Below are positions 39,813 to 43,364 of a DNA stretch of 64,000 nucleotides, one piece after another. The notes under the pieces were generated by a model, which was not told the DNA's origin, did not search any database, and saw only the letters and a program-made list of their open reading frames with translations. Location: positions 1 through 64,000 of the forward strand of contig JAQWIT010000010.1 in NCBI GenBank assembly GCA_029248745.1, written 5' to 3'. This DNA comes from Gammaproteobacteria bacterium (lineage in GTDB: Bacteria > Pseudomonadota > Gammaproteobacteria > Nitrosococcales > Methylophagaceae). How positions within the stretch are numbered: the first letter of the stretch is position 1; the number at the start of each line of letters is the position of its first letter. A program made the position numbers and the translations under genes.

Positions 39813-41090
39813 GTGAGCCAAAAAATCATATTAAATGATGACGATAAAGTCTCATGTCCCGCATGCGAGACGGCATTTCCTGTACAAGCGGGTTTATCTC
39901 ATCATTTGATTGAGCAATATGAAGCTGAATATTCGGCTATGTTGGATAAAGAACGCGAATCGCTCGAGAAACGTGTTATCCAAGAACAGCAACGTAAAAT
40001 AGCGAAAGTCCATGAGTCTGAACTACAGGTTTTAAAACAGCAGCTTAAAGACAGTCAATTAGCGGAAGCGCATTTTAAAAAACAAATAGAAGCAGCGAGT
40101 CAAAAAGCGGCTGAGCGCATTCGAACTGAAACGTCGCTTGAATTGAAATCTTTAAAAGACGAAATGGCCAGTAAAGATAAACGTTTGAGTGAGTTTCGTG
40201 ACATGGAGTTATTGTTACGTAAGGAAAAGAAAGCGGTAGAGCAACAAAAAGAAGAATTGACGCTGGAAGTTGAACGAAAATTGGATAAAGAACGTTTACA
40301 GCTTGAGCAAAAGATTAATGCTAATTTTTCGTTAAAAGAAGCGGAACTGAAGAAAAAAATCAGGGACGCTCAAAAAGCCAATGATGAATTAACACGCAAG
40401 TTAGAGCAAGGTTCTCAACAGCTGCAAGGTGAGGTATTGGAGCTCGAACTAGAAGCTTTGTTGGGCCAAAGTTACCCTTTTGATGTTATCGAGCCAGTAA
40501 AGAAGGGTCTGCGAGGTGCCGATGTCATTCAACGGGTCAAATTACGCTCTGGTGTTTTGTGTGGCACGATTGTTTGGGAGACTAAGCGAGCTGAAAATTG
40601 GTCAAATAATTGGGTTCCAAAATTAAAAGAAGATATGCAGCGTGAAGCAGGTGATATTGCTGTTTTGGTGAGTACGGCTTTTCCGGCCAATCTGGATGAA
40701 TCGATTACGCAACATGATGGTGTGTGGTTAGTTCGACCTGAGGTTGTCTCTGGCCTATCAGCAGCATTGAGAACGGTTTTGATTGAGTCTCAACGGCAGA
40801 AGTCAGTCAGTGTTGGTAAAAATGAGCAGATGGAGGCAATGTTTGATTATGTGACCAGTAATCAATTTGCTCAGCGAATTCGTGCTGTAGTAGAAAATTA
40901 TGAATCCATGCGTAGCGACTTAGAAAAAGAGAAAGCGGCGATGCAGCGGTTATGGAAAAAACGTGAAATGCAGATTAACCGCATTTCGGATCAAATGTTG
41001 GCTGTCTGTGGTGAGTTACAAGGAGTTTCATCAAATTCGATGTCAGTGCTTGATTCGATGGCAAACTTGGATTTTTTCACTGAGAATTAA
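39813..41090 (+). CDS. DUF2130 domain-containing coiled-coil protein
   Basis: A 425-residue soluble protein. The N-terminus has a zinc-finger-like 'CPACETAFPV' pair (residues about 15-18). Residues about 35-215 are a long, charged coiled coil rich in Glu, Lys and Gln. The C-terminal DUF2130 domain contains 'GADVIQRVKLRSG', 'GTIVWETKRAENWSNNWV' and 'DIAVLVSTAFP'; its E-x-K beside the strand resembles a PD-(D/E)xK nuclease core, though activity has not been shown as far as I know. The GTG start (39813) follows GGAGAG. It is a single gene. Function is unknown. Confidence 0.9.
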   Translation: MSQKIILNDDDKVSCPACETAFPVQAGLSHHLIEQYEAEYSAMLDKERESLEKRVIQEQQRKIAKVHESELQVLKQQLKDSQLAEAHFKKQIEAASQKAAERIRTETSLELKSLKDEMASKDKRLSEFRDMELLLRKEKKAVEQQKEELTLEVERKLDKERLQLEQKINANFSLKEAELKKKIRDAQKANDELTRKLEQGSQQLQGEVLELELEALLGQSYPFDVIEPVKKGLRGADVIQRVKLRSGVLCGTIVWETKRAENWSNNWVPKLKEDMQREAGDIAVLVSTAFPANLDESITQHDGVWLVRPEVVSGLSAALRTVLIESQRQKSVSVGKNEQMEAMFDYVTSNQFAQRIRAVVENYESMRSDLEKEKAAMQRLWKKREMQINRISDQMLAVCGELQGVSSNSMSVLDSMANLDFFTEN

Positions 41091-41497
41091 ATAACCTGAA
41101 ATCTGGAGAAGAATAGTCATCCAGCCCAGTTGATTTAGCCGCTCTCTGCGTTAGGTTTACTTGCAAAAGAATGACTATTGCTGCGCAAAGCCGCCTTGAT
41201 AGCGGTTAAATCAAATGCACTGGCTAGATTTGTTCACTCTTTCTCATTGTCATTAGACCATGTTTTTAAACAATAACCAGAATATTAATGAATTGCTGAC
41301 TATTCTTATCCAGATTTTAGGTTAAATAATCATTCAAAATCATGTGTTTATAAGTCCTACTGTTCTATCATAGCTTTCTTGACTAAATGCTAACGTTTTT
41401 TCTCATTGTTTAAAGCGGTGAGGGATGGGATGATTTTTTAAGCAGTATTTTTGAGTGCTTTATCACTATCGTTAATTAAACCGAGTTGGAGAAAGGA
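41091..41497. other. 407-base gap with interlocking inverted repeats
   Basis: Between DUF2130 and sodN no gene is recognised. The stretch 41112-41223 holds two inverted repeats whose arms interlock (described separately). The remaining sequence to 41497 is AT-rich, with TTGACT near 41380 as a possible -35 element of sodN but no convincing -10. Confidence 0.5.
41112..41223. repeat. Interlocking imperfect inverted repeats
   Basis: AATAGTCAT (41112-41120) is matched by ATGACTATT (41171-41179). The adjacent 23 bases 41121-41143 (CCAGCCCAGTTGATTTAGCC and on) are the near-complement of 41201-41223, with 'TTGATTTAGCCGCT' against 'AGCGGTTAAATCAA' mismatched once. The arms alternate left-left-right-right, so both stems together would be a pseudoknot. 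Confidence 0.65.
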
Positions 41498-41962
41498 ATG
41501 AGACAAGAATTAAGAACCGTATTTGCTTTAGCCATTTTCACATTGGGTACTTCTGTTATTTTCCCTGTTACCTTGCAAGCACACTGCCAAGTACCATGTG
41601 GCATTTATGATGATCATGCCCGTGTTAATGCGATGTTGGAAGATGTGGTAACGGTTGCTAAAGCAATGCGACAAATGGCTGAATTAGCTGGTAAAACAGA
41701 TGCTCAATCGCAGAACCAGATGGTGCGATGGGTAATGAATAAAGAAAAGCATGCACAAAATATTATTTCGACGATCAGTGATTATTTTCTGACACAACGG
41801 GTTAAATCAAAGCAAGAAGATTATGCTGAGCGTTTGATGAAACATCATGCGGTGATCGTGTCAGCTGTGAAAGCAAAGCAGAACAGTGATTTAAAATATG
41901 CTGATACCTTGGAAGCGGATGTTGCAGCTTTATTGGCCTATTATCCTGAACATAAACACTAG
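41498..41962 (+). CDS. sodN: Nickel superoxide dismutase with signal peptide
   Basis: Ni-SOD converts superoxide to hydrogen peroxide and oxygen. The 154-residue precursor has a typical signal peptide: Arg-containing n-region, hydrophobic core 'TVFALAIFTLGTSVIFP' and 'LQA' before the cleavage point. Cleavage there would leave a mature protein beginning HCQVPCGIYDDHARV, the nickel hook H1-C2-x2-P-C6-G-x-Y that supplies His1 N-terminal amine, Cys2 and Cys6. The remaining 126 residues are helical, with the family's 'WVMNKEKHAQ' and 'ISDYFLTQR'. ATG 41498 follows GGAG. No sodX maturation protease is beside it; downstream is a broken RND gene. Confidence 0.93.
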   Translation: MRQELRTVFALAIFTLGTSVIFPVTLQAHCQVPCGIYDDHARVNAMLEDVVTVAKAMRQMAELAGKTDAQSQNQMVRWVMNKEKHAQNIISTISDYFLTQRVKSKQEDYAERLMKHHAVIVSAVKAKQNSDLKYADTLEADVAALLAYYPEHKH

Positions 41963-42006: not shown

Positions 42007-43364
42007 TTAGGAATCATTTGTTTTACTGAAGTCAACTCTAAAAAATAGTCTGTATAAAACAGGGACAAGAATAAGGGTAATGATGGTCGCAAAGGCCAGT
42101 CCAAAGATAATCGAGACCGCCATTGGTCTGAACATAGCTGTTGTTGCCCACCAGAGTGGCATCATGCCGAGTACCGTCGTTGCAGTGGTCAGTAATACGG
42201 TCTAAGCCCTGTTGGCAGGCTGCTACCACTGCTGTGTGAGCGGCTCTGCCTAGTTCTTCGATTTCGATTTTAATGTGATCGATGAGTACGATGGCATTAT
42301 TGTTAATGATACCTGCTAGGGACAAGATCCCTAGGATGGTGAAAAAACCGAAAGAAGAATTAGCTAACAGTAATCCAACGACGAGACCTATAACGCCCAG
42401 TGGAACGGTGGTGAGAATGATGAGAGGACCTTTAATAAAGTTAAACTGACCGACGAGTAGTAACAGAACAATCATTCCTGCAATAGGCAGCTTTTCGACA
42501 ACAGTGGCATTGCCAGAGTTTTCGGCTTCGCCGTCAAGTTCATATTGGTAATCTGTTGGCCAGTCTGTTGAAACTACTCTAACCAAGGGACCAATGTGTT
42601 GTTAACTTGTGTTGCTGTCGTTCCCGGCATTAATTGGGCTTTTAATGTGAGCCTGCGAGATCTACCTCTACGTTCGATAATACCTAGTTCAAAGGCCATA
42701 CTGAGATCGGCTGCTTGCATAAGGGGTAGCGATTCTCCGGTGCTTTGTGAATAGATACTGGTGCCATCGAGTTTTTGAATATCCTGCCGATCAGCTGCAA
42801 CAGAACGGAGGGTGATTGGGATGAGTTCTTCGTCTTCACGGTATTCGAACATTTCAATACCGCTGAGACTAGCTTTGAGTCAATAATCAACATCATCAAT
42901 GGTGATGCCAGCTCGTGTAGCACGTTGCTGGTCTACAGTGACCAGAAGCTTTTTGGTTTTTTACCCCAAGTGTTTTTGACTGACAAAATAGCGCTATCGT
43001 CGTAAAGCTTGGCGGTCACTTCATCAGCAAGTCAATAAAGGGTATTAGAGTCTGGCCCGGATAGGAGGACTTGAATGGGGTATCCTACAGGCGGTCCATT
43101 TTCGATGAGTCCGGCTACAATCACGGACTCACTGGTTCCTTCAAATGTGATCACGTTTTTTTCAATTGAATAGTCGAGCCAGACACTGCCTGACAGCCAT
43201 AAAACTGTTTTTTTCACGACATGGACATTGTTTGACATTAGTTTTTTACTCAGGTCAATCAAGCAAACATATTTGAGCTGCCAATCAGGCATTGCCTCTA
43301 AATTGTTTATGATGTTCAGTTTTTCGATATTTATATCCTTTAATTGTCTTTTTTGTACTGCCAT
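42007..43364 (-). pseudogene. Decayed RND efflux permease (HAE1/AcrB type), C-terminal half
   Basis: Minus-strand fragments in several frames match the second half of an RND permease. They include 'NGPPVGYPIQVLLSGPDS' of the porter domain, 'LKAQLMPGTTATQVN', the transmembrane segments with 'GPLIILTTVPLGVIGLVVG' and 'TILGILSLAGIINNNAIVLI', and in another frame at the end 'TTATTVLGMMPLWWATTAMF' and 'LILVPVLYRLFFRV' to a stop at 42007-42009. Shifts occur near 42195-42210, 42580 and 42850-43030. The N-terminal half is missing entirely. Such permeases export drugs, solvents or metals; the specificity of the ancestor cannot be named. Confidence 0.87.

Follow-up and report, generated by a model that had tools for sequence, protein, structure and literature searches.

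Ni-SODs coordinate nickel via an N-terminal histidine, according to the accessible part of PMC12537917 (2025), in which the signal peptide of the Ni-SOD of Roseiconus lacunae (WP_230780104.1) was used as a search seed and many Ni-SODs were retrieved. On the strength of that text, a Ni-SOD with a signal peptide is, as such, already in print. Ni-SOD is processed by a cognate peptidase, as stated in the accessible part of PMC3919588. In the accessible part of PMC8346466 sodX is described, cyanobacterial Ni-SOD is called cytoplasmic and ten cyanobacterial strains without sodX are said to be possibly unable to use Ni-SOD.

The word sodX is absent from the main text of PMC12537917, and no account of two leader types was seen in its accessible part; exported Ni-SOD is likewise not described in the accessible parts of PMC7190382, PMC2667541, PMC11636452 and PMC6332867. 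No description of an exported Ni-SOD beyond PMC12537917 was found in the literature searched, with subscription papers mostly outside reach. Nor was a split into two routes, one using SodX and one using the signal peptidase LepB, found described in the literature searched, with the same restriction. The 2008 paper on Ni-SOD diversity by Dupont and colleagues may already describe an exported Ni-SOD. A signal-peptide Ni-SOD is not new as such, and the exported branch appears to be widespread but little studied.

Results

The gene considered here lies in a window of 64,000 nucleotides, the whole stretch of DNA that was analysed (contig JAQWIT010000010.1, positions 1 to 64,000), from a gammaproteobacterium of the order Nitrosococcales. 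Its features are:

41498–41962, forward strand: sodN-like gene for a Ni-SOD precursor, 154 residues plus stop, ATG start; intact ORF, PF09055 match, TIGR02753 below cut-off
41488–41491, forward strand: GGAG, likely ribosome-binding site, 6 bases 5′ of the ATG (sequence reading)
41498–41581, forward strand: predicted Sec-like signal peptide, 28 residues, LQA at its end (leader sequence, hydropathy)
41582–41608, forward strand: nickel hook HCQVPCGIY (sequence, alignment A1)
41582–41959, forward strand: mature domain, 126 residues, predicted four-helix bundle (AlphaFold2, PDB fold matches)

The leader, MRQELRTVFALAIFTLGTSVIFPVTLQA, is followed directly by HCQVPCGIYDDHARV. It opens with the n-region MRQELR, continues with 20 residues that include no K, R, D, E, H, N or Q and ends in LQA. 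Substrates of signal peptidase I have a positive n-region, a hydrophobic core, a small residue at −1 and a small or aliphatic one at −3, and the predicted leader shows these Sec features, including the −3/−1 rule. It contains no RR, the twin-arginine mark of the Tat route. An alternative TTG start four codons 5′ of the ATG is possible, but coincides with the ribosome-binding site.

The protein scored 131.5 bits against PF09055 (Sod_Ni, cut-off 25), which places it in the family, and 47.8 bits against TIGR02753, the NCBIfam sodN equivalog, which is under the cut-off of 90. HCQVPCGIY fits the hook pattern HCxxPCxxY. The first-pass annotation had claimed a Ni-SOD precursor with a Sec-type leader right before this hook, and the ORF, the PF09055 score and the LQA-H boundary confirm this at the level of sequence.

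The gene appears to be solitary: the DUF2130 gene upstream stops at 41090, and downstream the nearest ORF is on the opposite strand. A scan upstream of and through the gene gave five promoter sites, against 3.5 expected from shuffling, and no terminator. Two adjoining short ORFs occupy 42038–42852 on the reverse strand; the first has a PF00873 match restricted to positions 841–963 of 1021 and looks like the remnant of an AcrB-type efflux pump, and the second has no Pfam match. A further short ORF at 43032–43364, also on the reverse strand, is a partial SufE (PF02657 positions 2–71 of 121) and possibly truncated.

The genome that contains the window (20 contigs, 1.73 Mb in total, with a listed completeness of 99.99%) has one Ni-SOD. 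The first-pass annotation had claimed that no sodX-like gene is adjacent and had proposed that the genome be searched for sodX and for other SODs. The claim holds and extends further: no SodX was found beside the Ni-SOD gene or anywhere in this genome in a TIGR02754 search, so that the accompaniment by SodX typical of canonical SodN was not seen for the window Ni-SOD. The sole two matches, at 23 and 20.9 bits, both fall within a single ORF, which encodes LepB, signal peptidase I (L002:910–1683, 257 residues; 169.8 bits against TIGR02227, cut-off 47). The search for other SODs gave one Fe/Mn-SOD of 193 residues, without a leader, and no CuZn-SOD. An Fe/Mn-SOD without a leader is consistent with the two enzymes serving different compartments.

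The nickel transporters NicO (PF03824) and HupE_UreJ_2 (PF13795) were not found in this genome. As NicO is present in only five of the 63 genomes of the order, and in only one (G007) of its seven carriers of a canonical Ni-SOD, its absence tells nothing about the site of nickel loading, and a nickel importer was rejected as a discriminator.

A set of 84 exported-type genes was assembled from the window, three further genes of the order (L011, L012 and L013) and the best 80 of 137 relatives from a scan of genome_contigs. It includes two duplicate records, one frameshifted gene and one truncated gene. The record titles of the best 80 relatives name many phyla; many are metagenome bins, with labels as deposited. 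Leaders were started at the ATG giving the length nearest to 27 residues. The scan patterns included PCGIYDDH and the first eight leader residues, with HC required, and conservation of the hook among the relatives is, therefore, partly a matter of selection.

The first-pass annotation had predicted the boundary between LQA and His, and this boundary is conserved: in all 84 genes (the order's four and the best 80 of 137 relatives) the residue directly before the His is small, Ala in 67, Ser in 16 and Gly in one. At −3 the same genes have A (44), V (16), L (11), S (5), T (4), G (3) or I (1), and hook position 3 is Gln in 81 and Glu in three, where canonical enzymes have Asp. All 40 sequences of alignment A1 have His1, Cys2 and Cys6, and at least 90% have Tyr9. 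The two cysteines of the hook are the only ones of the mature protein in 76 of the 82 exported-type proteins counted from this set of the best 80 of 137 and the order's four. Within it the leaders have diverged, with a median identity of 29% to that of the window (n = 81), as against 68% for the mature parts. RR is present in five of the 84 leaders (best 80 of 137 and the order's four), and these five may use the Tat route. The Veronia nyctiphanis gene (L092:5004 onwards) is of the exported type, and stops break its frame soon after the hook.

The maximum Kyte-Doolittle value over 12 residues had a mean of 2.47 (range 1.63–3.07) in the 84 exported-type leaders (best 80 of 137 and the order's four), whereas the seven canonical leaders of the order gave a mean of 0.58 (range −0.27 to 1.10). 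The hydrophobic stretch does separate exported from canonical leaders. A value of at least 1.8 was reached by 99% of the 84 (best 80 of 137 and the order's four) and by 25% of 577 other ORF starts in the same loci. The window leader's own value, 2.13, was reached by 116 of these 577, and a signal peptide could therefore not be recognised from hydropathy alone. Nor does LQA by itself distinguish LepB from SodX, since endings of the form A-x-A or T/V-x-A occur in canonical SodX-type leaders too.

Outside the hook the two types are only slightly alike in sequence. A profile comparison of the exported with the canonical alignment gave a probability of 98.9 (E 1.4e-17, 110 columns). The window protein had no match to PDB sequences at E 0.001, and with the exported-branch profile Streptomyces Ni-SOD came up at no better than E 0.2, outranked by an unrelated chain (E 0.006). 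The AlphaFold2 model of the mature protein has a mean pLDDT of 92.4, with residues 1–5 below 50 and the hook thus of low confidence. The top 16 rows of a Foldseek search of the PDB with this model were all Ni-SOD, the best at E 0.0054 and none at E 0.001. With VIA the top seven rows were Ni-SOD (Z 14.8–15.1) and the next fold scored 12.7; four-helix bundles match widely. The predicted mature domain has, in the model, the four-helix fold of Ni-SOD, with Streptomyces Ni-SOD closest (Z about 15).

Nine of the 63 genomes of the order carry Ni-SOD. They hold 11 genes, seven canonical and four of the exported type, the latter being those of the window, L011, L012 and L013, with a hydrophobic leader and an HCQ hook. 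The canonical genes have non-hydrophobic leaders of 20–21 residues and the hook HCD[VI]PC[GK]IYDP, and in all seven a SodX of about 100 residues is encoded directly downstream. The SodX of the order is also just under the TIGR02754 cut-off (best 62.5, cut-off 63.25), and SodX was for this reason judged by size and position. No further short SodX-like ORF was found in the 63 genomes, other TIGR02754 matches being in frames of at least 174 residues. Two genomes, G007 and G056, each carry one Ni-SOD of either type, and there SodX adjoins the canonical gene. A third carrier of an exported-type gene, G017, is 67% complete and belongs to the same genus as the genome of the window.

Among the seven canonical carriers an Fe/Mn-SOD was present in G004, G006 and G033 and not found in G002, G007, G026 and G056. 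The four exported-type carriers comprise G000, which has an Fe/Mn-SOD, G007 and G056, which have a canonical Ni-SOD instead, and the incomplete G017, which has neither. Replacement of Fe/Mn-SOD by Ni-SOD as a strict rule was rejected, because the two coexist in some carriers; there is no strict exclusion in these genomes.

Of 369 genomes sampled from the class, nine had Ni-SOD, six canonical and three of the exported type. Each canonical gene (L125–L130) has a short SodX-like ORF downstream. The exported-type genes are that of the window genome, L131 (with a second fragment, L133) and L132, and no short SodX-like ORF was found within the stretches examined at L131 and L132.

Further afield, SodX was sought in 50 genomes belonging to the best 80 of 137 relatives, with the proviso that a draft genome may conceal it. 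TIGR02754 was above its cut-off in none of these 50. Seven of the 50 (L134, L135, L136, L138, L141, L143 and L144) have a SodX-like match whose open frame spans 77–116 residues, in every case directly downstream of a second, canonical gene with an HCD hook; the remaining TIGR02754 matches in the 50 genomes are in open frames of at least 158 residues. Very short canonical leaders, with no more than about nine residues ahead of the hook (e.g. MFKLNEVKA), were seen at L136, L141, L143, L129 and L130.

A conserved partner gene of the exported type was looked for and rejected, none of 78 clusters of neighbouring ORFs keeping an adjacent position in more than five of 80 loci; four of the 84 (L034, L040, L056 and L074) were omitted as their Ni-SOD was lost in ORF calling, and at least 1 kb was available on both sides in only 64 of the 80. 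Carriage by phages was likewise rejected: 11 stretches in viral_contigs fitted the patterns, and none of them codes for a relative.

In a tree of 101 mature sequences the 80 exported and 21 canonical proteins are split by one branch (support 100/99), in an alignment of 127 columns, where the bootstrap had not settled and Streptomyces sits on a long branch. The root was placed at the midpoint, which does not tell which side is older. The tree omits L071 and L024 (regarded as duplicating L011 and L012), the frameshifted L092 and the truncated L084.

In 13 of 20 canonical loci sodN-sodX is directly preceded by a gene for a small protein of about 70 residues, with one hydrophobic stretch and a predicted signal peptide that ends right before H-x-G-H-x-H:

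L007:1230–1448, forward strand: small HxGHxH protein
L004:1957–2166, reverse strand: small HxGHxH protein
L006:1954–2157, reverse strand: small HxGHxH protein
L005, L008, L009, L010, L125, L126, L128, L134, L135, L144: similar small HxGHxH protein

L130 has a looser version. The three proteins scanned gave no Pfam or NCBIfam family over cut-off. The protein was not seen in exported-type loci, where pattern matches in L043, L059 and L063 were judged by eye to be unrelated. As a candidate partner of the SodX-type enzyme, it may serve to capture metal.

In G007 (L007) the canonical cassette follows holD-rimI (names assigned from the Pfam matches DNA_III_psi and GNAT), and at that place the window genome (L014) has its Fe/Mn-SOD, an enzyme not found in G007. 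This is an apparent exchange in place of one cytoplasmic SOD for another between the two genomes.

Discussion

It is very likely, judging from the sequences, that the exported-type Ni-SOD leaves the cytoplasm by the Sec route, that a cut by LepB frees His1 and that nickel is loaded outside the cytoplasm. The first-pass annotation had proposed the same course, which the sequence checks support; it mentioned neither the printed signal-peptide Ni-SOD nor the breadth of the branch. The predicted signal peptide would thread the precursor through the Sec channel and LepB would cut after LQA. This would create the free α-amine of His1, and the amine and side chain of this residue would form the nickel hook with Cys2 and Cys6. 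The active site of LepB faces outwards and, as the amine would be absent until the cut, nickel would have to bind on the outer side of the membrane, most likely in the periplasm, where the mature enzyme would then remove superoxide. No SodX would be needed, and the separate Fe/Mn-SOD would serve the cytoplasm. It is from the features of gene and leader that we infer the export, cutting, metal, activity and location of the window Ni-SOD.

The protein might instead be exported and cut by LepB and yet be mainly a metal binder, capturing or delivering nickel or copper. Exported metal binders with an N-terminal His do exist, namely DUF4198 proteins and anglerases, as described in the accessible part of PMC12537917; moreover hook position 3 is unlike the canonical one and the rest of the protein is distant from characterised Ni-SOD. 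The invariance of the His and both cysteines of the hook, the near invariance of Tyr9 and a fold closest to Ni-SOD argue against this reading, which we regard as unlikely. It is very improbable that the enzyme is cytoplasmic and loses its leader to an unrecognised SodX-like or other peptidase. Canonical Ni-SODs work in this way, and their leaders have similar ends, but the window leader is more hydrophobic than all seven canonical ones, SodX was not found in the window genome and, where both types co-occur, it is the canonical gene that SodX adjoins.

A signal peptide could also stay uncut. It is extremely improbable that the leader acts as such an anchor in the membrane, or that the protein is a lipoprotein with its cut before Cys2. 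The Cys at hook position 2 is superficially like that of a lipobox; the residue before a lipobox Cys is, however, Gly, Ala or Ser, and in all 84 genes (best 80 of 137 and the order's four) it is His, HC having been required by the pattern. The small −1 residue in all of these 84 (best 80 of 137 and the order's four) points to a cut before the His, and an uncut anchor would block His1, or a cut at Cys2 remove it. Export by Sec with cutting by LepB remains the preferred reading.

On a wider scale, there are probably two old lineages of Ni-SOD, each on its own branch, in which related peptidases, one on either side of the membrane, free the N-terminal histidine: a cytoplasmic one with SodX, and an exported one, a lone gene found in many phyla, cut by LepB and loaded with nickel outside. 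For the exported branch, the inference that a Ni-SOD without sodX is unusable would be wrong. An exported Ni-SOD would defend the periplasm against superoxide without a need for copper or iron, and it raises the question of how nickel is delivered to two free thiols in an oxidising compartment.

Comparison with known systems

Canonical SodN, known from Streptomyces, cyanobacteria and gammaproteobacteria, shares with the window protein the hook of His1, Cys2, Cys6 and Tyr9 and, by prediction, the four-helix fold. It differs in its short non-hydrophobic leader, in the Asp3 and YDP of its hook and in having SodX downstream (seven of seven in the order) and, unlike the window protein, it exceeds the TIGR02753 cut-off (171.7 bits for L007). 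The Roseiconus lacunae protein WP_230780104.1, as presented in the accessible part of its source, is like the window protein in being a PF09055 protein with a signal peptide, there ending in ASA; it comes from another organism, and the His after the signal peptide was appended by the authors, so that the native boundary is not displayed. As to the peptidases, LepB is a general membrane-bound signal peptidase (257 residues here), whereas SodX, with its roughly 100 residues, is a dedicated protease. Both match the Peptidase_S26 model, and the two routes thus use related enzymes.
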